From IMG/VR virus record IMGVR_UViG_3300017963_000478, positions 1 through 38,086 of that record: a DNA stretch of 38,086 nt. One strand, 5' to 3'. A program made the position numbers and the translations under genes. Each line of letters starts with the position of its first letter. Position 1 is the first letter of the stretch. The notes under the pieces were generated by a model. It did no database searches. It worked only from the letters and a program-made list of their open reading frames with translations, and had not been told where the DNA came from. Below are positions 7,455 through 34,824 of this stretch, one piece after another. Origin of the DNA: a virus.

Positions 7455-7570
7455 TTACGAGTAAGTAAGGAAGGAGCAAGAACTTACGGTTTTTCACAGC
7501 GCAGAATTTTTTTGCTCTTTTTGTCTGGGGCAAAATTGGGACATATTTTTTGGGCACCTTTGGGTCAAAG

Positions 7571-13737: not shown

Positions 13738-14095
13738 AATAACCTTCGATTATTAAACTCCAGGGCCAGCCGGTCAACCGCTCCCTGCAAGCCACATATT
13801 GATTTGTGTTTCTGTCTTTAATGTCAACCGGCGTTGCATGTATGAAATGTAGTGTATCCGGATAGACAACTCCGCTATGCCAGTCACCGCCCATATTAAA
13901 AAGCACAATGCATGGCACAACCGGCTTGTCAATTTTTTTCATCTGCGTTTGATGTTGTAAGTTTTTTAATCGAGGCAAGCCGAGCAATCTGTAAACATGC
14001 CGGCAAAAAGCCCAACAGACATACTTTCTGCTTTGGCCGGCAAGGTTCTGACCAAATGGTTCATTAAGTATCTCTTGTATTTGTTTAGCAATCAT
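13727..14095 (-). CDS. NlpC/P60-like tail peptidase, gpK position (122 aa)
   Basis: C27 in RKYVCWAFCRHVYRLLGLPR and H73 in GGDWHSGVVYPD, with a later FIHATP, fit the Cys-His core of NlpC/P60 peptidoglycan peptidases. These occur at the K position of lambda-like tails and help the tail penetrate the cell wall. The ATG at 14095 overlaps the stop of the upstream gene (ATGA). The frame continues upstream to 14137, but the overlap start is better. The protein is short for the family, lacking the N-terminal JAB domain of lambda gpK. Confidence 0.8.
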   Translation of the reverse strand: MIAKQIQEILNEPFGQNLAGQSRKYVCWAFCRHVYRLLGLPRLKNLQHQTQMKKIDKPVVPCIVLFNMGGDWHSGVVYPDTLHFIHATPVDIKDRNTNQYVACRERLTGWPWSLIIEGYYEP

Positions 14096-17632: not shown

Positions 17633-18118
17633 TTAATCACTGACTTGAATAAAATGAAAAGTCATGTTCCATGTGTCACCTATGCCATCCGCAAGTCTGC
17701 ATCTCGGCCTTTCGGCAAAAATCACATTATATGTCACTCCGTCCTGCTTGTTGTACCATGGAAAATATGTGTCTTTGTTGGCCTCGTAAAATGCAATATA
17801 CTGAACTTTATCAGCATCCGGCACAGACGGCATGTCGAATTCGATATCTCTGCCGTTAAATGTATTGATTTTATTTAATACCGGATATCCTGAACCTGTT
17901 TCACCTAATAACACCGATCCGGCTGATGGCTCATCCCTGAAATTCAAATTCGGATCTCTTGTTAATATTGGAAATTGACAAAGCAGCTTTGGGGATTTCA
18001 CCTGCAAGTCAAGTGCTAATGTTGACGGATATTCGATATGCTCCGCACCTGGCAAAGTCACACTTTCAATCGTAAGACTCAATTCTAATGTTGACGGTGT
18101 TACTGTTATATCTGCCAT
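17633..18118 (-). CDS. Minor tail protein at the gpM position with repeat-like N-terminus (161 aa)
   Basis: Directly follows the tape measure, the place of lambda gpM. Residues 1-45 hold two degenerate copies of the same motif that makes up the array of the 793-aa protein (ITVTPSTLELSLTIESVT, then EYPSTLALDLQVKSP). The rest (LNFRDEPSAGSVLLGETGSG, then YIAFYEANKDTYFPWYNKQD and DTWNMTFHFIQV) looks like a beta-sandwich tail component. AAGGTAAAGTAAATC-ATG sets the start. The shared motif suggests that the two proteins meet in the tail tip. Confidence 0.7.
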   Translation of the reverse strand: MADITVTPSTLELSLTIESVTLPGAEHIEYPSTLALDLQVKSPKLLCQFPILTRDPNLNFRDEPSAGSVLLGETGSGYPVLNKINTFNGRDIEFDMPSVPDADKVQYIAFYEANKDTYFPWYNKQDGVTYNVIFAERPRCRLADGIGDTWNMTFHFIQVSD

Positions 18119-18126
18119 GATTTACT

Positions 18127-20100
18127 TTACCTTGCCGCCCTTGCAATTGCCATCTGATATTGAACGTTTGTTGACATTGCACCCATAGTGACATCAATAA
18201 TACGTTTGTCGCTAAATATATATTGTTCCGACCTGGTAACTTCGAGCTTGTCGTTTCCTTCGTTATGGACATGAAATTCTATGTCACCAGAACGTCTTTG
18301 ATCCGGTCTTAATACTTCCTCTCCAATATGAAGCCAGGCCGGTCCTGTTTCTTTAGCTAATCCACCGGTTTGATATTTTGCCATTGTACCCCCGGCCGCT
18401 GAAGGCACTTTACCAACCGTTGGTAATTCATACTGGCCATATTTTGTTTGACCTGTTGGCATTAATCCCATAAGACTATAAGCAATAGGCTCAGCAACTT
18501 TTTTATAAAGTATTATATTAGCAATTTCACGTATAAGACTGCGTGACATTTGTTTCATCGAATCCCAGAACTTTTGACCTTCGAACATCATCCGGTCAAG
18601 TGCATTTGTCCAGCCCCGGGCCATGCTCAATGCGACATCCTCCGCTATTCGCTTACGCCTTTCAGCTGACTGTTTTTCCATTTCTTCGCGTTTTGCAATT
18701 TGATTTTGCATCAATTCGAGTTGTTCCTCAGCCTTTTTCAAGTTGTGTTCTTTTTGCCACCTCTCCAATTGCTCAGCCTGTTTTTTCTCCTCCTCCATTA
18801 TTTTAGTAGTGACAGCAAGGCTCGTCTCATATTTTTGTTTAGCCATCCTTTCCTGCATGGCCTGATACGATTTTTCGTATGGCAGATTATTCCAGTATTG
18901 TTCCCATTTATCATCAGTCGAAACATCCAAATCTATTGTGCCGCCGTAAGCTGCCATGCGTTCTGTTGATTTTTTCTCAAGCTCGATTCTTCTCTGCTCA
19001 GCTTTGGATCTCAAATCATCAAAAAACTTTTCTACCTGACTGGTTTTTTCTTTTGTAGTTTTTTCAAGGTCTGCAAGCTCGCTTTTCCATTCTTTAGCCT
19101 CTTCACGAAGTGTCTCGCTAAATTCGCCGAAGCCTACTCCAAACTTCTTTTTAAATAAATATTCCATCCCTTTGAATTGCGGGATAAAATCAATCTTTTC
19201 CAAAAATCCAAAATACTTGGCCATACCTTCCAGAGCAATAGCGTTTATCTGCTTATGTCTGACACCGAGCATTTGTATTGTAGAGCCTAACCTTACGGCC
19301 GCTTGTGTCATTAATTCAAATACGTTCGTGACATTATGTCCCATCCCCTCGCCTGATGTCGCCAAGTCAACAAATTTAGTCGCCAGGACTTCTATGTATG
19401 GGGCAAGCTCTATTGTCGCCGATCTAACAAGTCCGGTTATAACACCCCGGGCCCGGGTTAATGCATCGTTGGCGGCCTCGACTTTCGCCGCGTCAAGACG
19501 TGAAAACGTAAGCCCTAATTTCTCGGCTTCGTCTGTTAATTCCTCAATTCCAACTTTACCCTGCTGGAACATATTTAATAATTGCATACCTTGACGGCCA
19601 AAAAAGTTATAAGCAATGCCGGCCTGTTCAGCTGCTGTACCTGCCTCGGATATCCTTTCAGCTATCTCCATGAAAGCTTTCTCTGTACCCATCGAGATAA
19701 CTTCATCAGCTGACATGCCGAGCATTTCAAGGCCGCGGACACCCTCACCAATTCCGTGCTTCGCTTCACCCATCCGGCGGACAAATATTTCCAAACCCTT
19801 GTGCAGATTTTCAATACTTGTGCCGCTTATTTTTGCCGCGTGTTCTAAACCGCCCAGGGCCTCCGTTGATATATGCAACTCGTCTGACATCTTAGCCATA
19901 CGGTCTATAGATGACATCGTCTGCTTGAGCAGATAACCTAAACCACCAATGCCGGCAAGCGCCAAAACGCTTGAAGCCATACGACGCATCGTCCTGCCTG
20001 TCGAGTCAAGGTCTTGACGAAAACCGGCTATTACACCCTTGGCTTTATTCTCAGCTGAGAATTGAGCAACGATTCTGCGTTTTAAGTCACTTGCTGCCAT
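18127..20100 (-). CDS. Tail tape measure protein (657 aa)
   Basis: Sets tail length and is threaded through the tail tube. N-terminal coiled-coil and basic section, hydrophobic helix MASSVLALAGIGGLGYLL (about 42-60), then the LGGLEHAAKISGTSIENLHK region typical of tape measures. A long charged helix follows (residues 320-500, rich in KEE/QAEQ) and a C-terminal domain (FWDSMKQMSRSLIREIANII). At 657 aa it predicts a fairly short tail, roughly 100 nm by the 0.15 nm per residue rule. The start lacks a clear ribosome site; it follows the repeated intergenic element. Confidence 0.9.
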   Translation of the reverse strand: MAASDLKRRIVAQFSAENKAKGVIAGFRQDLDSTGRTMRRMASSVLALAGIGGLGYLLKQTMSSIDRMAKMSDELHISTEALGGLEHAAKISGTSIENLHKGLEIFVRRMGEAKHGIGEGVRGLEMLGMSADEVISMGTEKAFMEIAERISEAGTAAEQAGIAYNFFGRQGMQLLNMFQQGKVGIEELTDEAEKLGLTFSRLDAAKVEAANDALTRARGVITGLVRSATIELAPYIEVLATKFVDLATSGEGMGHNVTNVFELMTQAAVRLGSTIQMLGVRHKQINAIALEGMAKYFGFLEKIDFIPQFKGMEYLFKKKFGVGFGEFSETLREEAKEWKSELADLEKTTKEKTSQVEKFFDDLRSKAEQRRIELEKKSTERMAAYGGTIDLDVSTDDKWEQYWNNLPYEKSYQAMQERMAKQKYETSLAVTTKIMEEEKKQAEQLERWQKEHNLKKAEEQLELMQNQIAKREEMEKQSAERRKRIAEDVALSMARGWTNALDRMMFEGQKFWDSMKQMSRSLIREIANIILYKKVAEPIAYSLMGLMPTGQTKYGQYELPTVGKVPSAAGGTMAKYQTGGLAKETGPAWLHIGEEVLRPDQRRSGDIEFHVHNEGNDKLEVTRSEQYIFSDKRIIDVTMGAMSTNVQYQMAIARAAR

Positions 20101-20125: not shown

Positions 20126-20278
20126 TCATTTACCAGGCAAAATATCGCCAATTTGCCAAAAACCCGGAATCAGGCCGTTATCAGCCTGATTCGAGGCCGT
20201 AGGACGCTCGTAGAGCAACTTTTTGGGCTCCCTTAGTGTTATATTAACCATTTTTGCGATTTGGCCGAAATTAGACAC
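20126..20278 (-). CDS. Candidate microprotein A (50 aa), copy A of the repeated element
   Basis: A GTG-initiated frame (ATG alternative at 20251) fills the gap between the upstream tail gene and the tape measure. It contains QIAK..NITLREPKKLLY..PTASN.A.NG, matching candidate B at 22 of 30 core residues. Against coding, the 12 differences between the two DNA copies fall at second (7) and third (5) codon positions in this frame, without the usual third-position bias. It may be a short gene or part of a non-coding element. Confidence 0.35.
   Translation of the reverse strand: MSNFGQIAKMVNITLREPKKLLYERPTASNQADNGLIPGFWQIGDILPGK
20174..20263. repeat. Repeated intergenic element, copy A (90 bp)
   Basis: Ungapped match of 78/90 with 30416-30505, including GTAGAGCAACTTTTT and TTTTTGCGATTTG. 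Both copies lie between co-directional minus-strand genes. They share a small GAGC-N10-GCTC stem on the plus-strand reading. Confidence 0.88.
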
Positions 20279-20319
20279 TTTTAACCCTTTTTAACAGTTT
20301 TTCAGTGAAAAGCTGAATT

Positions 20320-20832
20320 TTAGTCGTTACCCATAGCGACAACGTCAATAATTGCCGAACCCGATCCGGCTGACACTTCAAGTCTTAAGTTTTTGTTTGT
20401 TGTCGTCACTATGCCCGCTGCTGTGGGACATTGCCACAAATGAGAACAATCAGGCTTAAGCACATACTTGTCTGTGGTACCGCTCATAATCAAAAGACCG
20501 GCTGTCCCGCTAAAAAGAGAAACATCAAGTGTCGTTGATCTGTTGAATACATAGAGCAGTTTTATTGCTTCCATCGTTAAGGCGTTGCCGAAAACATCTT
20601 TAAGCGTTCCACTGTCATAAAGGTTTAATGTCTGGTTTGCTCCCTGGGCAATTGTCAACTTCTCGTGAAATAATACATTCGACTGCTTTGCTCCTGTGCC
20701 GAATGTCCACTTGATTTTTGTTTCGATACTCAGGGCGTCGAGTGTTGCCTTTAACTTTGTTGACAGATTGTTTTCATAATCGATATCAAGCTTGATAATC
20801 GAATTGCCTGTTAGATTTGTGCCACTCGCCAT
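20320..20832 (-). CDS. Tail structural protein of unknown type (170 aa)
   Basis: The protein is beta-rich with a symmetric layout (GNSIIKLDIDYENNLSTKLK, VFNRSTTLDVSLFSGTAGLL, LRLEVSAGSGSAIIDVVAMG). It ends in a glycine/serine-rich strand typical of virion shell or tail decoration proteins. It is encoded between the frameshifted chaperone and the tape measure, so a tail role is likely. No family name can be given. Start from GGGAATATAAAAA-ATG. Confidence 0.7.
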   Translation of the reverse strand: MASGTNLTGNSIIKLDIDYENNLSTKLKATLDALSIETKIKWTFGTGAKQSNVLFHEKLTIAQGANQTLNLYDSGTLKDVFGNALTMEAIKLLYVFNRSTTLDVSLFSGTAGLLIMSGTTDKYVLKPDCSHLWQCPTAAGIVTTTNKNLRLEVSAGSGSAIIDVVAMGND

Positions 20833-20853
20833 TTTTTATATTCCCAAAATATA

Positions 20854-21557
20854 TTAAACCAGGCCATTCATAACATTTTTAATTTGCCTTCTACTCATTC
20901 GTCTGCTGTTGGCCGTTTCCGGGCTTGCAGTACCAATTAGTTTTTCAAACATTCTCCTGGCTTCCAACAAAGCCTGTGCGTTTCCTCTGGTTGCTTGCTC
21001 CATGTGCTTAGCCATCATAATTCTCAATGTATCAGCCGGCTCACCTGTAGGCCAAAAATGTTCTGCGACATAAAGCTCTAAGACTTCGCATCCCGTATGT
21101 CGTTTACAGAATTCCGTTACACTGCATTTGTATTCTCTGGCGGTTCGGACGAGCCATCGTCGCCAGGGGTCGTCAGTAAGTTTTTTAGTATTTCAGCCTG
21201 TGCCTCAATACCGTAACCGCTCAACTTCATTGCCGTCCTGCAGAGCGGCTCAAGCTCAACAGCTGGCAAGCCGGCAATTATAGTCAATTCATTATCTTCG
21301 AATACTCTGACACCATCTGCATCACGCATCGTAAGTTGTATCAATTTGGCCGCTGCCAATTTTGCGATTGCCGGGTCGTTATTGTTCTTAACAAGACGCC
21401 ATGACTCAAGGCCGTAAGATGATAGACCGTGAATCCAAACTGTAACGCCGGCGATTTCCGCCTCCTCTTTTGGTATTTCATTTCGAAGATTCAAAATTTT
21501 TGTTTTGATTTCTTTTAAGCTTAACTGTTCTGAATTGTCTGACTTGTTCGTTTCCAT
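20854..21557 (-). CDS. Frameshifted tail assembly chaperone (GT-type fusion, 234 aa)
   Basis: Reading starts at 21557, shifts -1 on A AAA AAC (21180-21186) and ends at the TAA at 20854-20856. The product is 126 residues of the G part plus 108 of the T part. The T part begins LTDDPWRRWLVRTAREYKCS and is helical to its MSRRQIKNVMNGLV end. It has no start codon of its own with a ribosome site at its head and overlaps the 3' end of G. This is the organisation of lambda G/GT, in which a small fraction of ribosomes shift and the T domain links the tape measure to the tail-tube protein. Confidence 0.85.
21117..21557 (-). CDS. Tail assembly chaperone, unshifted G-type product (146 aa)
   Basis: A helical protein with an IKTKILNLRNEIPKEEAEIA start and a GLPAVELEPLCRTAMKLSGY segment near the slippery site, in the usual place of gpG between the tail-tube gene and the tape measure. 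Read without frameshift it ends PPENTNAV. The weak AAGGAAAAATAAAAC-ATG start and the TAA of the preceding gene are close together. Confidence 0.85.
   Translation of the reverse strand: METNKSDNSEQLSLKEIKTKILNLRNEIPKEEAEIAGVTVWIHGLSSYGLESWRLVKNNNDPAIAKLAAAKLIQLTMRDADGVRVFEDNELTIIAGLPAVELEPLCRTAMKLSGYGIEAQAEILKNLLTTPGDDGSSEPPENTNAV
21180..21186 (-). promoter_or_regulatory. -1 ribosomal frameshift site A AAA AAC
   Basis: The canonical X XXY YYZ heptamer lies in the G reading frame as CTA AAA AAC. The -1 frame downstream is open for 108 codons up to 20857, while the zero frame stops 21 codons after the heptamer. Confidence 0.88.
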
Positions 21558-21560
21558 GTT

Positions 21561-21743
21561 TTATTTTTCCTTTTGCTTTTTCGCCGCCGTTTTTACTTTT
21601 ACATAGCTACCGTTCAATAACAGTTTGGCGGCAAAAACTGTAATTTCCCGGCCAACCTCTTTTGTCTGACCTTTCGTGCCGGCCTGTGATGACGGACTCC
21701 GGACATCGGCCAGATATTCGATGACATCGCCTTCTTTCAACAT
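21561..21743 (-). CDS. Small hypothetical tail-cluster protein (60 aa)
   Basis: A short protein beginning MLKEGDVIEYLADVRSPSSQ and ending KVKTAAKKQKEK; the first half looks like an SH3-type barrel strand set. No family is recognised. AAGGGGTAAATAGCA-ATG is a good start. It sits between the tail-tube candidate and the chaperone gene. Confidence 0.65.
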   Translation of the reverse strand: MLKEGDVIEYLADVRSPSSQAGTKGQTKEVGREITVFAAKLLLNGSYVKVKTAAKKQKEK

Positions 21744-21756
21744 TGCTATTTACCCC

Positions 21757-22170
21757 TTATACTACGTCTGTGAACGTTGCACTTCCGCTAAGTGCAAAAG
21801 TGACATCTAATTCAACCGTTCCATCACCCTCGCTGAATGATGGTGTCCCAAGAGATGAAATAATCGCATCAATTGAATGGCTGCTTGTGTCTGAATAAGT
21901 AATAAGCAAAGTACCTTTTGTGCGAGCCTGATATTTTGTATTGAGCGTGTTATAAACACCTCCGCTGCTTCCATCATAAACGATGTGAACAGTCACGTCA
22001 CCTTCGTTTAATGCACCTGCTATTTTTTCGACCGCAGAATTCGTGCTGTCACAGCTTAAAATATCAATGATTCGGCATGACCGATTACCCGTAAGGCTCA
22101 TTATCTCGCCGATTGTCGCACTATCAAAAGTTACTACTGTGCCGAGTGCAGTAATAGCGTTCGTTGCCAT
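21757..22170 (-). CDS. Probable major tail (tube) protein (137 aa)
   Basis: The protein is short and beta-rich (MATNAITALGTVVTFDSATI, then GDVTVHIVYDGSSGGVYNTL and VELDVTFALSGSATFTDVV), as expected for a tail-tube subunit of the gpV or gp10 type. The position, after the terminator-like gene and before the chaperone, is that of the tube gene in lambda-like tails. AAAGGAGAATACCA-ATG suggests strong translation, in keeping with an abundant virion protein. Function from context and fold impression only. Confidence 0.7.
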   Translation of the reverse strand: MATNAITALGTVVTFDSATIGEIMSLTGNRSCRIIDILSCDSTNSAVEKIAGALNEGDVTVHIVYDGSSGGVYNTLNTKYQARTKGTLLITYSDTSSHSIDAIISSLGTPSFSEGDGTVELDVTFALSGSATFTDVV

Positions 22171-22207
22171 TGGTATTCTCCTTTAACAAATATTTAATTT
22201 TAATTCT

Positions 22208-22666
22208 TTATTGTCTGTAACCGCTATCAATCGCAGTCCAATACTGAACCTGCACAGTGACCTCGGCCACGATACCACCTGTCATTATGGAAAAATTATC
22301 TTCCGGACAATCTATATTCAAAGCCAGCCCTCCGCAGGCCTGGCCTTTTACATTTCCCCTGAACATTACTCGACGAATTGTCTCACACATTCTGCATAAG
22401 TGAGTATCGGCTGCGGTATTAGCCGGCAATTCTCTTATGATTCCGTATATCTTCCACTCCGCAACTTCTTTTCTTTTCGAGCCTGCTTTTTCAAGTGTCA
22501 CTTTGTCGATGATTTCAATTATTGCATCGTTGTTTTTATAATCCTCGACATTCCAATCAACTATCGTAGGTCGTACAGCCGCCAGAGTGATTGTTTGGTC
22601 CTCGTCTTGAGCGCCATCTATAGCGTCTTTGATCCAAACTGCGATTCGTTCAACTATCGGTTCCAT
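22208..22666 (-). CDS. Tail terminator-like protein (152 aa)
   Basis: It begins MEPIVERIAVWIKDAIDGA and has the alternating alpha/beta layout of gpU-like terminators, which cap the tail tube and join the head connector. The gene overlaps the end of the gpZ-like gene by 13 bases and precedes the tube gene, the usual order. The assignment is by context, since no signature is decisive. Confidence 0.6.
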   Translation of the reverse strand: MEPIVERIAVWIKDAIDGAQDEDQTITLAAVRPTIVDWNVEDYKNNDAIIEIIDKVTLEKAGSKRKEVAEWKIYGIIRELPANTAADTHLCRMCETIRRVMFRGNVKGQACGGLALNIDCPEDNFSIMTGGIVAEVTVQVQYWTAIDSGYRQ

Positions 22667-23217
22667 TTTCTCAATTCATATCCAACTTGCTGATTAATCA
22701 TTTTTGCCATCTTATCACCGGCCGCATCGGTCGCATCTTTTAAGAGGTCTTTTGAATTCGTTATCACTCTCCAGACTGATGGTCCACGCTGTTCACTTAT
22801 AGGAAGTCTCGAGATCCCCTTCCTTTTATAAACCCCGCGATGACCGCTTGACATTCTTTGAATAAAACCGTGCGGTAAAAGCTTGCGGCCTGTTGTTCTC
22901 ATTATCCTATATGTCACACCGCGTTTCGTTTGTCTTGTCCCTGTGAAAGCAATCAAACCAGGTCTGAACTCGCCGGCTGATATAGTACCTGTCAAATTCG
23001 AATATGACGCCCTTCGTTTTTTTAATGCCTTGGCAATGTCACCTTTTCTTACATTCAATATACTGCCGACTCTGCGTTTTAAATCAACGGCTGCCGAATC
23101 AACAGCCCTGTTAATAGCACGAGTAAATACCCTCGGCACAGCCCTCGGAATTGCTCTTAAAAGAAAAACAGCTTCCTTGAAACTTTTTTCGTCGAATTGT
23201 ACTTTTACAGCCAACAT
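22654..23217 (-). CDS. Minor tail / connector protein of the gpZ or HK97 gp10 type (187 aa)
   Basis: The pattern FKEAVFLLRAIPRAVPRVFT, then RAVDSAAVDLKRRVGSILNV and KLLPHGFIQR...RKGISRLPI is that of phage minor tail protein Z / gp10-like joining proteins. They are strongly basic and connect the head completion proteins to the tail. The gene begins TAATG, overlapping the stop of its neighbour by one base, so translation is coupled. Confidence 0.75.
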   Translation of the reverse strand: MLAVKVQFDEKSFKEAVFLLRAIPRAVPRVFTRAINRAVDSAAVDLKRRVGSILNVRKGDIAKALKKRRASYSNLTGTISAGEFRPGLIAFTGTRQTKRGVTYRIMRTTGRKLLPHGFIQRMSSGHRGVYKRKGISRLPISEQRGPSVWRVITNSKDLLKDATDAAGDKMAKMINQQVGYELRKWNR

Positions 23218-23564
23218 TAATGAGCCTCAAATGTCACCATGCCTGCGTCCTGTTCGATAATCCTTGCTAAATGAAAATTTCTTGCCGATTCACCCGATCT
23301 TGGCGGTGCACTTATTTTTTGCCCCGATGTAAATTCACCAGGAGTGATACCAGTCGTTGAATTGTTAGCAACCTGAATCTCTATTCTTGGCCCTCGCCTT
23401 CTTTGAACCGGTTCAACAACATCATCATCAGACACATATTCGATGATTAATGTTATATCCCGATCCAGAACACCAGGCTGATAAACACCCGCTATACCAT
23501 ACAAAGCTAATTGTATGGTCGCGTTTTGAACTAACATTTCATCAAACGTTTTTAAGGTCATTGA
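23217..23564 (-). CDS. Head-tail joining protein candidate (115 aa)
   Basis: From MTLKTFDEMLVQNATIQLAL on, this is a beta-rich small protein with a VQRRRGPRIEIQVANNSTTG segment, in the place of head-tail adaptors between capsid and tail genes. A longer frame from 23612 would overlap the membrane protein gene, so the ATG at 23564, one base after that stop, is preferred. No signature decides its exact role. Confidence 0.6.
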   Translation of the reverse strand, partial: SMTLKTFDEMLVQNATIQLALYGIAGVYQPGVLDRDITLIIEYVSDDDVVEPVQRRRGPRIEIQVANNSTTGITPGEFTSGQKISAPPRSGESARNFHLARIIEQDAGMVTFEAH

Positions 23565-23565
23565 T

Positions 23566-23802
23566 CTAACCCAACATTTTTGAAATCGCTGCAAAAATTG
23601 AAATGCCGCCAAACGCTCCGGTCAATCCTGAGCCAACACACAAACCAATTAAACCCCATTTTGACGCAAGTATTGTCTTGCCGTGGGGACAAGATTGAAT
23701 ATGCCATTTTAAAACATCTGAAATGACTTCCTTAGAAACTTTAGAAGCAACGTTCGTTACGACTTCGCGTATATAATTTGTGTCCTGTTCAGTTAGCGAC
23801 AT
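23566..23802 (-). CDS. Small membrane protein, holin-like (78 aa)
   Basis: A helical N-terminus with HIQSCPHGKTILASKWGLIG and one hydrophobic helix (GLCVGSGLTGAFGGISIFAAI). Similar small proteins with CPHG/K followed by a single membrane helix occur in many phages; some are called holin-like or XhlA-like, but function is unproven. It lies between the major capsid and joining genes, an unusual place for a lysis gene. ACCGAGAGAAAA-ATG is its start. Confidence 0.65.
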   Translation of the reverse strand: MSLTEQDTNYIREVVTNVASKVSKEVISDVLKWHIQSCPHGKTILASKWGLIGLCVGSGLTGAFGGISIFAAISKMLG

Positions 23803-23833
23803 TTTTCTCTCGGTATAAAAATCAATGTATTAA

Positions 23834-23873
23834 GTATAGCCTGGTCGAACCGCCTTAACGCACCAGGCTATAC
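23834..23873. terminator. Perfect 12-bp hairpin downstream of the major capsid gene
   Basis: Arms 23834-23845 and 23862-23873 (GTATAGCCTGGT and its complement) with a 16-nt loop. There is no immediate U-run (TTAATACATTG on the minus strand). It may limit read-through or stabilise the capsid mRNA. Confidence 0.65.
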
Positions 23874-23912
23874 CCGAACAAGTTAAACTCTTATGAAAAG
23901 AGCAAAAAACTT

Positions 23913-24869
23913 TTAGCTTAATGTCGCGTGTGCAGCATACTGCCAGTAACCATAGCCGACGTTTCGGACAGCCTTGATGCCGTACTGATGCATATTATTG
24001 TCAAACTCGAACTCGCTGCCTTCGGCTTTGGCACCTACGGAAATCTTTTCTTCCTCTTGTCTGATTAGTGCCTTGGCCGGTGCGTCTGTCCGGAATACGG
24101 CGAACTGTGTCGTAAATGTCAAACGCGGATTAGGAACAACGGAAACCTCAAAGCCTTCCTTTTTCAAGGCCTTAAGAACGTTCGATTCGTTGACGTTGCC
24201 AGGCTCACCCAATGTCGCATGAACCAGATAGGGCCATAATGTCACGCTCGTCTGAACAATGAAGTTTTTGGCTTCCGAATTCATTGGTTCGCCCTGGTCA
24301 TCTTTGTAACCGAGCATGTAAGCAATAACGCCGAGTATCGCCTTGATTGCTTCTGTTACCGTCGGAGTTGTTGCTGTAGTGACATCGAGGGCCGCAACTT
24401 CACTGGAAGTAAGCAAATTCTTTTGAGTGCCACTTTCGCCCTCGCTATGGTCACTGTCAAAGAAGTATTGACCGTCATAGCAAAGACCGCTCGTCGATCC
24501 GGTACCGTTCAATATGAGCGTGCTTAAAAGCTTGCCCCAGTGTCCAACCGCTCTTTGAGCAAGCTCGGCTATACGAATGTCGATTTGGCCGGTTTTGTCA
24601 CGGCGAATCCAGTCAGACAGAATATTCAAAGTAGCTTCGAACGTTTTGTTTTCAATCGTGATTCCGTTTTCGCGAAAACCTTTTGCCTGCCTGCCGCCAA
24701 TCCATTCACGCATTGCCGGTACCATGCCAAGCCACTTGTAAGTCTCCGATGCCTGGTCCGAATCGAAATGAACCGACACAAGGTCAACCCACGACTTGCC
24801 TGTGTACTCCTCGAGCGCTGCAAAGAATTTCCCAATTATCGCTCGACTTCCTAAACCTTGAGCTCCCAT
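23913..24869 (-). CDS. Major capsid protein, Mu gpT type (318 aa)
   Basis: The N-terminus MGAQGLGSRAIIGKFFAALE, then WLGMVPAMREWIGGRQAKGF, ITIENKTFEATLNI and the CYDGQYFFDSDHSE segment are hallmarks of the Mu-like prophage major head subunit gpT family, an HK97-fold shell protein. The length (318) is normal for the family. It has its own strong start AGGAGACTACAA-ATG and hairpins on both sides, suggesting separately controlled, high-level expression. Confidence 0.9.
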   Translation of the reverse strand: MGAQGLGSRAIIGKFFAALEEYTGKSWVDLVSVHFDSDQASETYKWLGMVPAMREWIGGRQAKGFRENGITIENKTFEATLNILSDWIRRDKTGQIDIRIAELAQRAVGHWGKLLSTLILNGTGSTSGLCYDGQYFFDSDHSEGESGTQKNLLTSSEVAALDVTTATTPTVTEAIKAILGVIAYMLGYKDDQGEPMNSEAKNFIVQTSVTLWPYLVHATLGEPGNVNESNVLKALKKEGFEVSVVPNPRLTFTTQFAVFRTDAPAKALIRQEEEKISVGAKAEGSEFEFDNNMHQYGIKAVRNVGYGYWQYAAHATLS

Positions 24870-24925
24870 TTGTAGTCTCCTAAAAATAAGTTTTGTGATT
24901 TACCGCTTACAGCGGGCAACAAAAA

Positions 24926-24959
24926 ACGGCAAGCAGATTAACAGGCACCTGCTTGCCGT
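24926..24959. terminator. Bidirectional intrinsic terminator upstream of the capsid gene
   Basis: A perfect 11-bp stem ACGGCAAGCAG/CTGCTTGCCGT (24926-24936 with 24949-24959) and a 12-nt loop. On the minus strand TTTTTTG follows the stem at once, and on the plus strand CATTGTTTTTT follows. It lies between the decoration-protein gene and the capsid gene, in the middle of a co-directional cluster. Confidence 0.85.
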
Positions 24960-24976
24960 CATTGTTTTTTCGTCAT

Positions 24977-24998
24977 CTTCCGACTGGCCTATCGGAAG
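24977..24998. other. Second small hairpin next to the bidirectional terminator
   Basis: A 7-bp perfect stem CTTCCGA/TCGGAAG (24977-24983 with 24992-24998) and an 8-nt loop. It is 18 bases upstream, in transcription order, of the terminator. The tandem arrangement may hold RNA polymerase or protect the upstream mRNA end. Confidence 0.45.
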
Positions 24999-25070
24999 AA
25001 TCGCCCGGATTTTAATTTTTATAATACGTCTAAAACTTTATGTCACTTAATGCAAATCAGCTTAAATTAA

Positions 25071-25832
25071 TTAAGCCTCTCTTGCCCATGTTCCACGCAT
25101 GGCCTCTATAAACCAGCCGTCCGTTCCATCCGCTACAAGAGTAACAAAATCGCCTCTTTGTGCCGTGGCCTTTGTGTTGACAAGGTCTTTATTGTCCGCT
25201 GCAGTAACATCATTGCCGTTAATTTGGTCGTTTGCGTTCGGGCTGATTGTAACAGCTACAGTACCGAACGAACCGGCATTGACTATTGTTACTTTGATAC
25301 CTGCATCAGTGGCCGGCAGAGTGATTGTCTTTGCATCGGTGTCAACATAGATGATTTTACCGCCGTCCAGGGCGTCAACTGTATAGTTGTCACTCTTTGT
25401 TTCTCTGGCTTCGTTTGCACCGAATTCATCATAACCAAGCGGATCGAACTCAACTTCCATTTTAGTTGCCGACACATAACGCGAAATCTTGCCAACATAG
25501 CTGTTGCCCGTTGCAACGAATGTATATGTCGCATCATCGGAAGCATAGACCGGCTGTCCAACGTCCGTGATTAAACCGACAAGAGAAACAACGAGGCGAT
25601 ATTTGCCCGTGTAATGTTTTATGTTCTTGTCGCCGGCTGAACCGCTCGAATTGTCAACCTGCTCGATGTTGTGACCGACAAACTTGTCGCCGGCTACAAG
25701 CGGCCTTCCGTAACCGGCACCATTGTCACCAACCATCGCACCTTCATAGACAATGTCCGAAGCGACGGCGGGAATTGAACCAATATTGCCCACCATTACA
25801 TCAAGAGGGCTATCCGCTGTTAGAGTTGCCAT
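25071..25832 (-). CDS. Head decoration protein candidate, DUF2190-like start (253 aa)
   Basis: The first 120 residues (IVYEGAMVGDNGAGYGRPLV, then AGDKFVGHN, DVGQPVYASDDATYTF and YVGKISRYVSATKMEVEFDP) match the capsid decoration pattern in which a small beta-barrel ends in a VEFDP-type strand. The second part (residues 145-250) is another beta-rich module (YVDTDAKTITLPATDAGIKV), probably an added surface domain. It is encoded before the major capsid, with AAGGAGATAAGCTA-ATG. Confidence 0.75.
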   Translation of the reverse strand: MATLTADSPLDVMVGNIGSIPAVASDIVYEGAMVGDNGAGYGRPLVAGDKFVGHNIEQVDNSSGSAGDKNIKHYTGKYRLVVSLVGLITDVGQPVYASDDATYTFVATGNSYVGKISRYVSATKMEVEFDPLGYDEFGANEARETKSDNYTVDALDGGKIIYVDTDAKTITLPATDAGIKVTIVNAGSFGTVAVTISPNANDQINGNDVTAADNKDLVNTKATAQRGDFVTLVADGTDGWFIEAMRGTWAREA

Positions 25833-25903
25833 TAGCTTATCTCCTTACAAAGATTTACACTCGTTTATATTCTTGATCTCAGGCTCTGATTAGAACTTAA
25901 GAC

Positions 25904-26524
25904 TTACTTTTTTATTTTCAATAATGCTCTGTAAGCATTTGTCGAACGTTCTTTGTCACCGGCACCGTCCGCACTTAGAATATATCTTCTTATTGCCTTG
26001 ACGATATTCAAGCTCTCGAACTCTATGTAAGCATTGACGTTTTTGAATTCGCTTTTCAGTGTTTCCGATTTTTCGAATTTGCCTTCACAAAGTTTTTTAT
26101 TGACCGGCGACTTGCTCTTGTCGCTGAACGGTATAACAAAAGGCAGTCTCAGATTTTTCTTTCCGGTCAAATTTTGATATGTACGCAAAGCACCTTCGGA
26201 GAACGGGTCATCAATATCAAGCATGAAGCCCGGGCCGGACGGCATTTTATTAACAACGTTAGCCGCTGACTGAACCAATGTTTCGTAAAGTTTAGGCAAA
26301 CGTTTTTGTGCACTTTTCGCATCGGTTGTGTTTATAACACCGACAACAGCTTCCTCGATCTCATTGACCAGCTCCGGATATGCCTGTCTTAAAGACGAGG
26401 CATTTTCTATCTGAAAAGGTTTTCTCGCCTCGGCCTCAATTTCAGATACCAAAGCCGGAAAAGCTTCTTTGAGTTGTTGGGCGGTTTTTATTTCAATATC
26501 AGTTTTCTTGTCCTCTTTTGCCAT
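25904..26524 (-). CDS. Scaffold-like helical protein (206 aa)
   Basis: Contains two copies of a helical motif, QLKEAFPALVSEIEAEA and SLRQAYPELVNEIEEAV, with a third relative (QERPDLVNEIFEKA) in the scaffold part of the adjacent protease. This suggests that it is a second scaffold or a head-assembly protein interacting with the protease-scaffold. The rest is helical (residues 60-206). No known family is assigned. AACGAGGTAACAAA-ATG sets the start. Confidence 0.6.
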   Translation of the reverse strand: MAKEDKKTDIEIKTAQQLKEAFPALVSEIEAEARKPFQIENASSLRQAYPELVNEIEEAVVGVINTTDAKSAQKRLPKLYETLVQSAANVVNKMPSGPGFMLDIDDPFSEGALRTYQNLTGKKNLRLPFVIPFSDKSKSPVNKKLCEGKFEKSETLKSEFKNVNAYIEFESLNIVKAIRRYILSADGAGDKERSTNAYRALLKIKK

Positions 26525-26621
26525 TTTGTTACCTCGTTTTTAATTTGTGGTTATAAACTATTTTCAAAAAAAACAATCTCTTAATCATTGCCCACGTCGT
26601 CACTGAAAAACGAATCGTTTT

Positions 26622-28004
26622 TTACTTTGTCGCTAATATTCGAACCTGTTCGTTAGCCTCTGCTTTCTTAAAAGCAATATAAGCTTTTACATCACCGCCG
26701 AACTCTGTCTGTAATTCACTCGATGCGTTGAACTCCGCTTCGAGCTTTTCATCGTCGCTGCCTTTATTGTCTGTCGTGGTTGTCGTTTCCTGCTGCTCGT
26801 CATTGAATTCAGCCAAAGCCGGATCGACTTTGTTAGTTTCGCTCGTTTGCTGTTTCTGGCTAAGCTCTGTGTTTGTTTTACTCAACTGCTCGTTTTCGGC
26901 TTTGAGTTTATCGATCTTCAAGGCGCTTGCTTCCTTGACCGTTTTGTTTTCCTCGAAGCACTGAACGATTAATTCAGCATCGCCGCCGCAAGCCTCTTTG
27001 ATTTCCGAGAAATAATCCATCACACCTTTTTTACCTTCTGCAACGCCATCGACTTTGGCTTTTTCGAAGATTTCATTTACCAGGTCCGGACGTTCCTGTG
27101 TTAGCTGGTCCAGGTTCATTTCTGAAATATTTAATTGTTCTGACATGATTTTATTCTCCTGAATTGAATTGAATTTGACATTCTCCATACCGGCAAAAGC
27201 CGATGACTTAGTATTCGAATCATAACCAAAGACACACATGCTTATCTCTTTGATTATTGATTTTCGAAAAACAGCACCCGGGCCTTTTAATGTAAGACCG
27301 TTCACCTTGACACTCGAACCCTCCGCAACACGCTCTATGACAGATGGCGGACAAAACAAGCTTGCTTCCATCGGGAAACCGGCTTCCATATCGTTTCTTA
27401 ATGACTGTGCATTTTCGTTATCAAGAAACTTTCCCTCTATGGTGACATTTCCGTCAATAGTTTGATTCGTTGAAAAACCGATTCGCTTGTCTGTAAAATG
27501 AGATTCGAGGACCGGCAAAGGCTTTTTATAAAATTTAGTACCCTGCAAATCGATAGCCAGATTGCCCCAGTAAAAATGTTTTATAATACCGCCCGAATAT
27601 CCAACGATTTTGAAACCACCGGCCTTGTCTTTGTTCTCGGCGAAAGTCATGTTTTCAAGCATATCAGAACTTAAGACACATGCCTGGGGCGGAGCTTCAT
27701 TTTCTAATGCCGATTGTTTGTCTTTAGGCTTGGCCGCTTCGAATAATACATACTTGACTTTGTTTGTCTTAAGCCAGGCCTTTGCCTTTGATTCAGTCCA
27801 TGACTTTATAGGAAACCGCAGGGCCTGGGGCAATGGCGGATCCGAAGATTTTGTTTTACCTTTGAGCTTTGCCCAAACTATCGATATCGTTTTCGGCACT
27901 TTTGTTTTGCCGAAAATCGTGCCGCCTTCGGTTCTTCGATATGTCTCTTTATCGAAATCGTCCGGATTTCTCAGCCTGGCACTGTGCTCGTTTGGATAAG
28001 GCAT
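26622..28004 (-). CDS. Prohead protease fused to scaffold (460 aa)
   Basis: Residues 1-100 form an N-terminal extension (RFPIKSWTESKAKAWLKTNK) common in a subgroup of head maturation proteases. The protease core has candidate catalytic H169 (VLESHF) and S215 (PMEASLF), the herpes/HK97-type Ser-His pair. From about 300 to 460 the sequence is acidic and helical with a coiled coil (KLKAENEQLSKTNTELSQKQ), the scaffold part that is removed during head maturation. AAAGGAGTAATAATT-ATG is the start. It lies directly between the portal and the other scaffold-like gene. Confidence 0.85.
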   Translation of the reverse strand: MPYPNEHSARLRNPDDFDKETYRRTEGGTIFGKTKVPKTISIVWAKLKGKTKSSDPPLPQALRFPIKSWTESKAKAWLKTNKVKYVLFEAAKPKDKQSALENEAPPQACVLSSDMLENMTFAENKDKAGGFKIVGYSGGIIKHFYWGNLAIDLQGTKFYKKPLPVLESHFTDKRIGFSTNQTIDGNVTIEGKFLDNENAQSLRNDMEAGFPMEASLFCPPSVIERVAEGSSVKVNGLTLKGPGAVFRKSIIKEISMCVFGYDSNTKSSAFAGMENVKFNSIQENKIMSEQLNISEMNLDQLTQERPDLVNEIFEKAKVDGVAEGKKGVMDYFSEIKEACGGDAELIVQCFEENKTVKEASALKIDKLKAENEQLSKTNTELSQKQQTSETNKVDPALAEFNDEQQETTTTTDNKGSDDEKLEAEFNASSELQTEFGGDVKAYIAFKKAEANEQVRILATK

Positions 28005-28017
28005 AATTATTACTCCT

Positions 28018-29508
28018 TTAATTCGTAACTATGACAGAGTCATCGAATTTGGGCTGGCTCTTTTTTTCAGGGCTCAAAGAAATATTTTTCTCAGTAAGCA
28101 GCTTTTCTTCTTTTTCCCGCTCTTCTGTTATTGCGTTAAAATCATAACCCTGACGCTGACAAATTTGAGTCCTTGTTGTTGTTCCGTTTTTCAACTGCTG
28201 TTCGTCCGCTTTTGCTTCCTTAAACGGGTCAACATACGGCCATCGTTTACAGGAAACATTAAATCTGTTCCAGTCGATCCGCTCCGACAATTTTTTCCTG
28301 GCAATCCATTCTTTGAGCTTGTACAAATAAAGCGTTCTAACAAAAGGCTTGATTAACAATTCCTGCTCATCGTTCCAGGTATCCCGGGCCTCGGAATATG
28401 CAACCCGCGAATTCATAAAAGTAGCACCGCTGTAGTCACCTGTCATTATCATCAGCGGCATGTTCACCGGATTTCCGATAATCATTAAAATCCGCATCAT
28501 AAACGGGTCAAACGCCTGTGCCGGCCTCGTCGAGCCGATTGCTTTAATATCCTCACCTTGCCGGCCTTCCCAAATCAAGCCGGGATCGACTTTCTGAACC
28601 GAGCGATTGTATTCGTCTTTGCCCGATGAATGTACACCGCCGGTAAAAGGTACCGGATTGCCTGAGCCGGTTTTCGTTGTCACCATCATTGGAAAACATG
28701 CGTTAATTTTTGCCGCAACGAGCTCCGCATCGACATAACCAAACAGTTTATCAATAGCGTCAACAGCACTAACAAGAATCGGCTCACCTCTTGAGTAGCT
28801 GAATCTATCAGGACTGAAACTGTGATGAACAAAAGAAGCCTCATACTTTTTGTAACTGTCATTTTGTATGTAACCCCACTTCGATGATTTGCCTATATAA
28901 TAGCCGATGACACGATTCGTTTTATTGCTTATGGCTATACCGTTTACGATTCGATAGTTCTTTGGCTTTTTATCCATGCCGTACGGAGTACCACATAGCT
29001 CGCTTTCAATCGGCTGGATTCCGTCTCTTGTAAATAGCGTAAATATGTCACCGTCCTGGCAATATGAGTGATACAACAGCTTAAGATATGTATGAATATT
29101 AAATCGGCCTGTAACCTCACAGGGCTGATTAACCATTTCATTTTCCCAAAGATAGCCGGCCTCTTTGTTCCACCCATCATCATCAGTTATCGATTGTACT
29201 TTTGTTGATGTGCCGACAACTTTAGTAGATAGCTTTCTGAAAATACCTTTAACAAGCGGATTGTTACGGGAAAGGTCACGACAAATTTCTCTCAATGAAT
29301 CGTGCCTTGTTTCGGTCAAATGATTATCGCCGGTACCGCCCAGGTTGGAGCGTTTTTTTCTCAGCCTGTGTTTGTCGAGAATTTCATAACTGAACCGAAA
29401 CGCCTTTCGATTCATTGCCGTTTTCGGCGACAATATGCTGATGTAGTCATCGAGCTTGATCGACAACCTTTTGCTAAATGACTCTTTTGGCTGTATAACT
29501 TCTCTCAT
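28018..29508 (-). CDS. Portal protein, lambda gpB family (496 aa)
   Basis: Typical portal features: an early TETRHDSLREICRDLSRNNP segment leading to LVKGIFRKLSTKVVG, followed by a core with YHSYCQDGDIFTLFTRDG and a later MTGDYSGATFMNSRVAYSEA block. A C-terminal EKEEKLLTEKN-type helical tail ends the protein. It forms the DNA entry ring at one head vertex and the docking site for terminase. The start ATGA overlaps the stop of the gpW-like gene. The length is within the family range. Confidence 0.9.
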   Translation of the reverse strand: MREVIQPKESFSKRLSIKLDDYISILSPKTAMNRKAFRFSYEILDKHRLRKKRSNLGGTGDNHLTETRHDSLREICRDLSRNNPLVKGIFRKLSTKVVGTSTKVQSITDDDGWNKEAGYLWENEMVNQPCEVTGRFNIHTYLKLLYHSYCQDGDIFTLFTRDGIQPIESELCGTPYGMDKKPKNYRIVNGIAISNKTNRVIGYYIGKSSKWGYIQNDSYKKYEASFVHHSFSPDRFSYSRGEPILVSAVDAIDKLFGYVDAELVAAKINACFPMMVTTKTGSGNPVPFTGGVHSSGKDEYNRSVQKVDPGLIWEGRQGEDIKAIGSTRPAQAFDPFMMRILMIIGNPVNMPLMIMTGDYSGATFMNSRVAYSEARDTWNDEQELLIKPFVRTLYLYKLKEWIARKKLSERIDWNRFNVSCKRWPYVDPFKEAKADEQQLKNGTTTRTQICQRQGYDFNAITEEREKEEKLLTEKNISLSPEKKSQPKFDDSVIVTN

Positions 29509-29699
29509 GTTTCCGCTACAATAATCCTGCCTCTGCTCTCAGCATCTATCCGGGCAAGTAAATCTCTTTCCCTTTCGTATAGCACATTCAGCTGAGCATA
29601 ATTAGTCGTTTTACCTTTGTTCGTTATGCTCTGTGCACCTTCCTCAATCCTTGCGATTGCTTCCTGTACGCTTTCTAATTGCTCTGCCAGAGTAGCCAT
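29505..29699 (-). CDS. Head completion protein gpW-like (64 aa)
   Basis: A helical protein with LAEQLESVQEAIARIEEGAQ and YAQLNVLYERERDLLARIDA. The size, two-helix layout and place directly before the portal match phage gpW-type joining proteins. TTGGAGAACGTGTT-ATG gives the start; its stop overlaps the portal ATG. Confidence 0.8.
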   Translation of the reverse strand: MATLAEQLESVQEAIARIEEGAQSITNKGKTTNYAQLNVLYERERDLLARIDAESRGRIIVAET

Positions 29700-29773
29700 A
29701 ACACGTTCTCCAATGGCTTTAATTAATGCTTATAATTCGAACACTATAGAGATATGCCAATAAAAAGAAGTGC

Positions 29774-29798
29774 CTTTGTACTAATTATTAGTACAAAG
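29774..29798. promoter_or_regulatory. 25-bp perfect palindrome
   Basis: CTTTGTACTAAT and ATTAGTACAAAG flank one central base (29774-29785, 29787-29798). It lies in the 118-base gap between the zinc-ribbon gene and the gpW-like gene. A hairpin with a small loop is possible, but the A/T-rich symmetry resembles a dimeric operator. TTAAAATTTTTT follows on the plus strand. Confidence 0.6.
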
Positions 29799-29817
29799 AT
29801 TAAAATTTTTTCTGCTA

Positions 29818-30060
29818 TCAGGAATCGTTTTCCGGCTGATAATTCAATTCGATGCTCTTGAATGTATGGCCGCACTTACCGCATTTATGATATCGTACAG
29901 GCAAATCCCTGCTGCTGTAAACAGGGCAATTGGTGCTGTTACACTCAGGACATCTTAACCTGATGTATTCAACAACCTGGCTTTTGTCATCAGCCGGATT
30001 TCTCTTTTTTCTTCGAGGCAAATCGAGGTCCGGCAAATCGTCTAAAAATCCATTTCCCAT
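29818..30060 (-). CDS. Ogr/Delta-like zinc-ribbon protein (80 aa)
   Basis: C37-x2-C40 and C60-x2-C63 (RCPECNSTNCPVYSS...YHKCGKCGHTFKS) form the zinc ribbon of the Ogr/Delta group, known in P2-type phages as activators of late transcription. The first 12 residues, MGNGFLDDLPDL, repeat the C-terminal motif of the large terminase (GTGFLDDIPKL). It may bind the same partner, or serve packaging rather than transcription. The location inside the packaging-head cluster is odd for Ogr. The ribosome site is weak. Confidence 0.75.
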   Translation of the reverse strand: MGNGFLDDLPDLDLPRRKKRNPADDKSQVVEYIRLRCPECNSTNCPVYSSRDLPVRYHKCGKCGHTFKSIELNYQPENDS

Positions 30061-30075
30061 CTCAACGTCCGTGTT

Positions 30076-30333
30076 TTATTTAATACCCCTTCGTGATTTA
30101 TTATCCCAATGTTCACCCCTTGCCTCTGACATGAAGCCGGCCCAAATTCTAAAAGACCGAACCGCTCTAACCTGTGATTTTGTTTCTACATCTTCCAAGT
30201 CGATGTATCTCCAAAATAAAAAAACAAGAATCAAGCAATCTTCGAACCTGTCCCAAAACCAGGTATATACAAGTAATTTTGTAAAACGTATTTTCACTGT
30301 TTGCCATGCCCTGATATTTCGTTCAATTCTCAT
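30076..30333 (-). CDS. Small hydrophobic/basic hypothetical protein (85 aa)
   Basis: The sequence starts MRIERNIRAWQTVKIRFTKL with an aromatic-hydrophobic stretch LVYTWFWDRFEDCLILVFLF that could be a membrane segment, followed by a basic C-terminus. No family is recognised. AAAGGTGACATA-ATG marks 30333 as the start, 14 bases after the stop of candidate microprotein B; the longer frame from 30390 would overlap that candidate. Confidence 0.65.
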   Translation of the reverse strand: MRIERNIRAWQTVKIRFTKLLVYTWFWDRFEDCLILVFLFWRYIDLEDVETKSQVRAVRSFRIWAGFMSEARGEHWDNKSRRGIK

Positions 30334-30346
30334 TATGTCACCTTTA

Positions 30347-30520
30347 TCAAAATGTTTCTCCGCGATCCGCGCAATGCCTGAAAATATCACTCAAAAGCAA
30401 AATTGGTGGATTTATGCCGTTTTCAGCCGGATTTGAGGCTGTAGGAAGCCCGTAGAGCAACTTTTTTGGCTCCATTAGTGTAATAATACCCCTTTTTGCG
30501 ATTTGAGCGGTTTTAAGCAT
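30347..30520 (-). CDS. Candidate microprotein B (57 aa), copy B of the repeated element
   Basis: CGGAGAAATA-ATG begins a frame of 57 codons, MLKTAQIAKRGIITLMEPKK followed by LLYGLPTASNPAENG, which shares 22 of 30 core residues with candidate A. It fills the space between the large terminase and the next gene. The C-terminal parts of A and B differ. Codon-position statistics of the two copies do not favour this frame, so it may be non-coding. Confidence 0.45.
   Translation of the reverse strand: MLKTAQIAKRGIITLMEPKKLLYGLPTASNPAENGINPPILLLSDIFRHCADRGETF
30416..30505. repeat. Repeated intergenic element, copy B (90 bp)
   Basis: Second copy of the element at 20174-20263, ungapped and 78/90 identical. 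It lies downstream of the large terminase and upstream of a small gene. Flanking sequences do not align, so the element itself was duplicated. Confidence 0.88.
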
Positions 30521-30534
30521 TATTTCTCCGATTT

Positions 30535-32451
30535 TCAGAATAATTTCGGTATATCATCGAGAAAACCCGTTCCCTGTTTGTTCTGATTTGATTCGTTCAC
30601 TTTTGGCTCATTCGTCAATGGTTGTAATGACTGAGCACCGCTTATTTCTGCCGCAAAAGATGAATACACCTTACAGTCCCACAAGTGGTTCGGCAGATGC
30701 TCTTTTTTCAAAACCCAAATCAATTCGTAAGATTGTTTTCTTTTGGTTCTTACCGGTCTTTGTTCCTCAGATGTTAAATGCTGCAACGTTTCTTCCGTTG
30801 TCTCTTTGTGTAAATGCCAGTAGCCCGGGCCCGGGGTTTTGGATTCGAATAGTAACCTGTAGAGCCGGCCTTTGTATGAATTAAGATTAAGGTCATAACG
30901 AATCATTAATCCACCGGCTATCTTGGAAGCCCTGAACGGACGATTGCGGACACTATCGTCACCGCGTACCTGTAACAGATTAAGCTCAGTACATTGAGAG
31001 CAAAAGTCTTTTACAACTTCCGGCCTGTATCCTGTATCTATCGCAGTGACATAAATATAAAACGGTATCTTGTTATTATCATCTTCGCTCTGCCAGGGAG
31101 TTTTCAGAAATCTTCTTAGCAATTCCCAGTTTTCAAGCTCCTTCGTGCTTCCGGTCTCTAAACGTGCCTCGTAAATAGACCAAACCTCTGAGAGATATCC
31201 CCATCCCTCTACGCTTACCCATATGTGATCTATCTGGATATCGACACCGCAGCTTATCATCTGCACGCCTTTCGGTACTTTGCTTTGTTCATAATTTCCG
31301 ACATGAGCCAACAGCGGTGTGATATCGGTTTCTTTTTCCGTCTCCTTCCATGTTTCGGCAAGCTGTGAATTGAAATAATCATGCAGGGGCTTAACATTTC
31401 TTTTTTTCTTTTCAGTCATTGCGTTAGCCCAATCAGCTGCTAAGTCATCCATTGTTTGGAAAGCCGGATTCAACATAAAAGCCGATATCCTGCAACTATG
31501 ATGACTTGTCACCGGCATATTGCCGATTATTTGACCGCTCCTGTCAACCTTACAACCAGCTGGTGCATATACTCCACTGAAAACAGCATCCCATCTTTGA
31601 TACTCGGACCAGGGGCGTTGACAAAACGGACAGACGTATCTTGCATGTCCGCCGTTTTTGTATTTCTCCGGATGCAGTAACTTACCGCTTTTCGTTTTGT
31701 CCATTATCAAATTTTTGTTTGCCATTATGTGGTAAATTCCACAAAGCTGACATTTGACGAAAAACTCATTCATGTCACCTTTTTGAAATTCAGCATCGAA
31801 CAAGTCACCTTCCTCAACGAACGTCGATAAGACAAGAAGTTTTGAACGTGTCCTGAATGTTCTCTGCCTTTTTTTAGACAAACTCACTGGATCCGCCTCT
31901 TTACCGCTCGACGGTGGAAATTTACCTACTTCGTCAAGGATTATGTGACATACCGGATTATCAGACAACGCAGCTGGGCTATTCGACCAGGCTATATAAA
32001 AAATCATATTGTCGAGCACCGTTTCTTTGCCTGTGTTAAGCTTCTCAAGATTGCCGCCAAGGTGACTTAATAAAGTCGGTGTTGATTTGAACATCGGTCT
32101 TAATCTTGTTGCAATTCTCCTTTTCGCGTCAACTTCCCTTGGCATGACTATCATCGTCGGTGCCGGTGCGACATCGACTGTTCGACCGATGAAAATATTA
32201 CCTAATTCAGTTTTTGCCCCCTGACTACATGCCGCGACTGTCACCTGCCTTGTGCCTACGTCCGAAAGCCACTCCATGGGTTTTTGTAAAAACGGTACAT
32301 ATTCGTTTGACCAGGGGCCGGAAAGCTCTGCTGTTTCTTTTGGCAAGATGTAATTGTTTTCGGCCCACTCGGACAAAGACGGGATTTCCTTGTCCGCCCA
32401 TGCGTCCTTCACCTCCTCCAATGTCTGCAATGGTCTTTTATTAAGTATCAT
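30535..32451 (-). CDS. terL: Terminase large subunit, lambda gpA family (638 aa)
   Basis: The motor that packages DNA. The Walker A-like motif is CSQGAKTE (residues 75-82); the family pattern SQVGKTE shows Gly where this protein has Ala. Walker B is CHIILDE (167-173). A zinc knuckle is likely (KCQLCG...YVCPFCQRPW). The nuclease domain carries acidic GVDIQIDHIWVSVEGWG and AIDTGYRPE. The protein ends GTGFLDDIPKLF. It starts 11 bases inside the small terminase gene (GATGATACTTAA). The length fits the family. Confidence 0.92.
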   Translation of the reverse strand: MILNKRPLQTLEEVKDAWADKEIPSLSEWAENNYILPKETAELSGPWSNEYVPFLQKPMEWLSDVGTRQVTVAACSQGAKTELGNIFIGRTVDVAPAPTMIVMPREVDAKRRIATRLRPMFKSTPTLLSHLGGNLEKLNTGKETVLDNMIFYIAWSNSPAALSDNPVCHIILDEVGKFPPSSGKEADPVSLSKKRQRTFRTRSKLLVLSTFVEEGDLFDAEFQKGDMNEFFVKCQLCGIYHIMANKNLIMDKTKSGKLLHPEKYKNGGHARYVCPFCQRPWSEYQRWDAVFSGVYAPAGCKVDRSGQIIGNMPVTSHHSCRISAFMLNPAFQTMDDLAADWANAMTEKKKRNVKPLHDYFNSQLAETWKETEKETDITPLLAHVGNYEQSKVPKGVQMISCGVDIQIDHIWVSVEGWGYLSEVWSIYEARLETGSTKELENWELLRRFLKTPWQSEDDNNKIPFYIYVTAIDTGYRPEVVKDFCSQCTELNLLQVRGDDSVRNRPFRASKIAGGLMIRYDLNLNSYKGRLYRLLFESKTPGPGYWHLHKETTEETLQHLTSEEQRPVRTKRKQSYELIWVLKKEHLPNHLWDCKVYSSFAAEISGAQSLQPLTNEPKVNESNQNKQGTGFLDDIPKLF

Positions 32452-34747: not shown

Positions 34748-34779
34748 TGTTTTTATCCCTCAAATTTATTTTTAATAAT

Positions 34780-34817
34780 GCCCCGTGCCGGAGTCGAACC
34801 GGCGTTCCGTTCGGGGC
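34780..34817 (-). ncRNA. tRNA-minihelix-like element (acceptor stem plus T arm)
   Basis: Read on the minus strand: 5' strand GCCCCGA, linker ACGGAAC, T-stem GCCGG, loop TTCGACT, T-stem CCGGC, 3' strand ACGGGGC, discriminator-like A. Six of seven acceptor pairs form (A-A at the seventh), and the T arm is perfect with all T-loop consensus bases (T54, T55, C56, G57, A58). D and anticodon arms are missing, and no CCA is encoded. It lies between the stop at 34825 and the start at 34747. Alternatives are a degenerate tRNA gene, an mRNA tRNA-mimic or a hairpin terminator; no T-run follows. Confidence 0.65.
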
Positions 34818-34824
34818 TGTTTTC

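Follow-up and report, generated by a model that had tools for sequence, protein, structure and literature searches.

A duplicated intergenic element in an uncultured phage is a member of a dispersed family of short elements found at module junctions

The repeat pair present in the 38,086-nucleotide viral sequence analyzed here (the whole of it is referred to below as the window) belongs to a larger dispersed family of intergenic elements, which was beyond the view of an earlier note made from the window alone. This family spans at least a dozen related uncultured bacterial viruses, a group of uncultured temperate siphophages; comparison by portal or terminase gave matches of only 22%–28% to cultured phages. 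The preferred places of the element are the gap after the large terminase gene and before the portal gene, the end of the late operon by the integrase gene and, in this window, also the gap before the tape measure gene. From comparison of the sequences we give slight preference to the view that the copies are short (approx. 95 bp) non-coding dispersed DNA elements which would act in cis as DNA.

The two window copies (copies A and B, Table 1) were identical without gaps at 78 of 90 positions (20174–20263 and 30416–30505), confirming the duplicated 90-bp intergenic element of the earlier note. As the runner-up 90-mer in the window, with both strands compared, reached only 43/90 (mean 23 ± 4), chance is excluded for this pair. 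Weaker ungapped similarity (75%) extended over 144 bp (20139–20282 and 30381–30524), and across 71 core columns the copies were 86% identical. A further contig from this virus contained both without change and was 99.9%–100% identical over the segments compared. The minus-strand open reading frames of 50 and 57 codons, one per copy, were present as the note had described, and their start codons (GTG at 20278, ATG at 30520) and a purine-rich SD-like stretch were in the same register in copies A and B. The imperfect hairpin upstream of copy A was read directly from the sequence, as was a similar sequence, TCGGCTTTTCAGTGAAAAGCTG, which is located ahead of the element in both L024 and L025. A DGR template/variable pair was considered and rejected, since all four bases are represented among the 12 differences and no RT was present among the ORFs inspected. 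Repeats of another kind were observed in a 793-amino acid gene (14092–16473), where 66-nt tandem repeats at 14801–15574 encode 22-amino acid repeats like VTPSALDLGLTLETPT; the gene at 17633–18118 begins with a single similar unit.

Table 1. Location of the element copies, the overlying and neighboring genes and the RNA-like stretch described in the text (positions refer to the window unless a record is named).
Feature	Location	Strand	Remarks
Copy A, conserved island	20174..20269	-	71-column core 20174-20244; profile match E=9e-23
Gene neighboring copy A	20320..20832		
Tape measure gene neighboring copy A	18127..20100		
Copy B	30416..30511	-	between large terminase 30535-32451 and small gene 30076-30333
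50-codon ORF over copy A	20126..20278	-	probably incidental; no PHROGs match
57-codon ORF over copy B	30347..30520	-	good SD, tight packing; no PHROGs match
Imperfect hairpin TCAGCTTTTCACTGAAAAACTG	20295..20316	-	upstream of copy A
Type-1 core (element type of this window)			AAAARTYGCTCTACGRG
RNA-like stretch, approx. 105 nt	L057:525-631	-	beside integrase
RNA-like stretch, approx. 105 nt	L060:6410-6516	+	beside integrase
RNA-like stretch, approx. 105 nt	L061:6990-7097	-	beside integrase
RNA-like stretch, approx. 105 nt	L065:5109-5230	+	beside integrase

Searches of IMG/VR and of GTDB species genomes with exact and degenerate protein and DNA patterns of the window copies returned a sibling contig only. 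A portal search identified 19 relatives (58%–70% identical), and a profile built from the two window copies matched the gap after the terminase gene in L014/L015 (1.8e-13), L017 (9e-4) and L026/L027 (6e-3); adding L014 to the profile brought L017 to 9e-8 and L026 to 8e-6. The same gap in L020, L021, L022, L024 and L025 contained clear relatives of the L017 and L026 elements. The copy B position is therefore the shared one, being occupied in all of the records just named, and with homologues in other phages the pair is not the chance duplication which the note had envisaged should none exist anywhere. No element was found at the copy A position, between the corresponding two genes, in relatives L013, L021 and L027, indicating that copy A is an addition specific to one lineage. 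The closest copy outside the window was 65% identical at best, against the 86% between A and B, and copy A would have arisen through duplication inside this phage lineage. The element gave no profile match to the end of the small gene next to copy B. That minus-strand gene encodes an 85-amino acid protein which matches no family and has the conserved C-terminal sequence GFMSEARGxxWDxKSRxGxK, and beside it on the minus strand (29818–30060) is a zinc-ribbon protein gene which is present in nearly all relatives.

Further copies were found with a pattern derived from the relatives, TSGAACACAGGGCANNCTGG, which represents a type-2 sequence; the type-1 pattern added L056, and full records were fetched and then scanned for element copies. 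Records G002 (38.9 kb) and G003 (32.8 kb) each contained one copy after the terminase gene and a second in the interval from the tail-tip gene to where the late region ends, that of G002 adjoining the integrase gene. G001 contained two copies near the integrase gene, one of them truncated, and G009, which we grouped with the separate contigs G015/G016 as one kind of phage, contained one copy between the tail-tip and integrase genes. A single copy was found between terminase-side genes and the portal gene in both G007 and G008, whose portal proteins are only approx. 25% identical to that of G002. All copies were exclusively intergenic and had the same orientation as the late genes, and each long record with any copy (the window, G001, G002 and G003) had two, co-directional. 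No match to a type-2 copy was obtained in plasmid and phage collections. A match in L055/G006 was judged to be due to chance because the record had been selected by the pattern scan, and a tblastn match to a Campylobacter phage was set aside as an AT-rich chance match. Downstream of the G008 element, at about 2760–2930 of L064, we observed a perfect palindrome, CTTACCAATGTTTGGTAAG, and a promoter-like TTGACA site, followed soon afterwards by a strong terminator-like hairpin ahead of the portal module.

Sixteen copies aligned gap-free over 71 columns, and when unrelated phages were compared the element stood out as an island with clear limits, with approx. 80% identity compared with 32%–49% in its flanks (G013 vs. 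G008: core 83%, flanks 32% and 49%; G002 vs. G001: core 87%, flanks 33% and 42%). A conserved stretch at module junctions is thus common to phages with unrelated flanks, and as the same island recurs in this way in other phages it is unlikely to be the duplicated end of a lost gene, one of the origins suggested in the note. The terminases of G008 and G002 were 40% identical while their elements were 83% identical, and those of the window and G002 were 71% identical with elements only 48% identical. This failure of the element to track terminase similarity argues against a packaging site (cos or pac) by the terminase gene, a reading with which the post-terminase position in many members would agree and for which two copies per genome are awkward in the case of cos; we consider it hardly credible.

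Bacterial repeats of the REP and MITE type are short, dispersed, non-coding and non-autonomous. The element is likewise a short, dispersed, non-coding repeat with one truncated copy (the second of G001), and the main rival to a cis-acting site is a selfish non-autonomous repeat of the host group, REP- or MITE-like, which was carried into the phages and has no function in them. Near-identical cores amid unrelated neighbors would be expected of such a repeat, as would an element similarity that follows no phage protein tested, and the G007 copy adjoins a short Tat-signal-like ORF resembling host DNA, which is a weak hint in the same direction. However, the post-terminase position has been kept across many phages and in three lineages, orientation is fixed with only two copies per genome, neither terminal inverted repeats nor target-site duplications were visible by eye in the aligned copies and their flanks, no associated transposase was seen, and a scan of the genome collection with the type-1 sequence of the window found none. 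On balance we regard a host repeat as unlikely. A point against the cis-acting reading is that the element could owe its conservation to recent spread and not to function.

Small ORFs located in phage gaps can readily be mistaken for microproteins; here comparison across phages indicated that it is the DNA which is conserved and not the reading frame. The note had proposed paralogous microproteins and had drawn attention to a 0/7/5 split of the 12 differences over codon positions. The recount agreed with that split, but it was absent in homologues, where conservation by column class was 75/78/75% among the 16 copies and pairwise counts were even, with no codon periodicity, and an empty class has a chance probability of P = 0.023. 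The 16 aligned copies contained 12, 17 and 4 stops in their three sense frames so that no frame was open in all, single-base indels in L021 and L024 move the frame, and a start codon in the ORF register was missing from most copies and from those beside the integrase gene. The sole remaining support for translation is the score of the frame reading VALRASY in the window and IEHRASW in relatives, which was z 2.6–3.0 above column-shuffled controls when several frames and subsets were tested, yet this frame contains 17 stops. Judged from the sequence, the window repeats probably do not represent two very small genes, and the ORFs over copies A and B would be incidental; translation of the ORF over copy B is possible, but its sequence is not conserved as protein. 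A translated microprotein, possibly made by a -1 frameshift at the A-run (A AAA AAG) which would join the EPKK frame to VALRASY.L.SG, as the two frames described in the note hint, could account for the matching register of SD and start codon in copies A and B, the tight packing of ORF B, the conserved A-run and the richness of the VALRASY/IEHRASW frame in conservative changes (z up to 3.0). With an upstream frame that differs among relatives through 1-nt indels, no start in the integrase-side copies, every frame interrupted by stops and no codon periodicity, we find it highly improbable.

The suggestion that the element is an RNA also fared poorly. RNAalifold gave a consensus energy of 0.0 kcal/mol for 16 copies and four weak pairs for 10 copies, subsets surpassed shuffled columns by at best about 2 SD, and the folding z-scores of single copies centered on zero. 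The compensatory changes expected of a structured RNA were not found in the element alignment, and there was no match to Rfam or sign of a tRNA origin; a T-arm-like reading of CTCGAATC was dropped as its stem does not pair as in tRNA. An RNA acting in the late transcript as a leader or as a signal for antitermination or processing, and folded in a way missed by the short alignments, would be consistent with the invariable sense orientation in the late operon, with the z-scores of copy A (about -2.5) and G003 (about -1.5) relative to shuffles and with the type-2 subset (alifold -4.6 vs. -1.3 ± 1.4), although given the few consensus pairs we think it improbable. Elsewhere in the window, an intergenic mini tRNA-like sequence was observed at 34779–34818 on the minus strand, with a T-arm (GCCGG-TTCGACT-CCGGC) within an acceptor-like stem (GCCCCG/CGGGGC); it has no D or anticodon arms, and ARAGORN calls nothing there.

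A separate RNA-like feature was found in G001, G002, G003 and G009, where the integrase-side copies are followed after approx. 100–200 nt by promoter-like sites and, downstream of these, a conserved stretch of approx. 105 nt (Table 1). This stretch can be drawn as a pair of interlocked helices with a single nested hairpin, in the pseudoknot order A-B-C-C'-A'-B', and a T-run follows it. In the four sequences 98% of cells pair and both sides have changed in 11 of the 26 pairs, compared with 30%–42% pairing and 0–2 pairs changed on both sides in slid controls, the structure having been written by eye on the same four-sequence alignment. The stretch matched no Rfam family, and a covariance model search recovered the same four records only and none in the window. 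It is possibly a new phage small RNA. Just before the integrase gene of the window (at 7550) lies an apparent 3' half of a tRNA-Gly gene (7413–7455, plus strand; TTCCCAAGCTGAATGTCGTGGGTTCGAATCCCATCGCCCGCT), which is likely to be the attachment site.

Repeated cis-sites in the late regions of temperate phages are exemplified by the late promoters of P2 activated by Ogr/Delta. The element resembles these in being a repeated cis-site in a late region with the zinc-ribbon gene nearby; however, no P2-type site was identified and the zinc-ribbon protein matched Ogr_Delta only at E=0.7. The start-associated sequences (SAS and ESAS) of cluster K mycobacteriophages are intergenic repeats of unproven function, the SAS lying at the ribosome-binding site with an AGGAG motif and the ESAS containing 17-bp inverted repeats (PMC3203893). 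Like these, the element is phage-specific, repeated, intergenic, mostly in one orientation and conserved at equivalent genes of relatives (PMC3203893). Unlike SAS, it is approx. 95 bp long and lies at varying distances from the next gene, with no set spacing from a start codon; after the integrase-side copies promoter-like or other sequence intervenes. Unlike ESAS, no conserved inverted repeat was found in the alignment of element copies. For lambdoid phages it has been proposed that recombination targets short boundary sequences conserved at the junctions of mosaic modules (Clark et al. 2001, as cited in PMC3029335). The element resembles these in position, being likewise intergenic, at module borders and conserved where neighboring genes differ. 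It differs from them in being present as two directly oriented copies per genome and in its movement to new junctions (ahead of the tape measure gene).

From a bounded intergenic island which has a fixed orientation and lies where transcription units or modules meet we infer a protein-bound cis-site or a boundary sequence. The non-coding element would act in cis as a predicted recognition site for a DNA-binding factor, which may regulate or insulate at the boundary of a transcription unit, and/or it would serve as a boundary sequence preserving homology at module junctions. A more particular proposal, which we advance only tentatively, is that it represents an undescribed cis-acting DNA control element common to phages from different genera whose hosts form one uncultured group, recognized by a host or phage factor and heading transcription units that include the one for the pseudoknotted RNA by the integrase gene. 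Should the element prove to be a site of regulation or recombination, it would provide a handle on late-gene control or module exchange in phages which have no cultured member, and its core sequence is specific enough that a simple scan may find more of these phages and perhaps their host.
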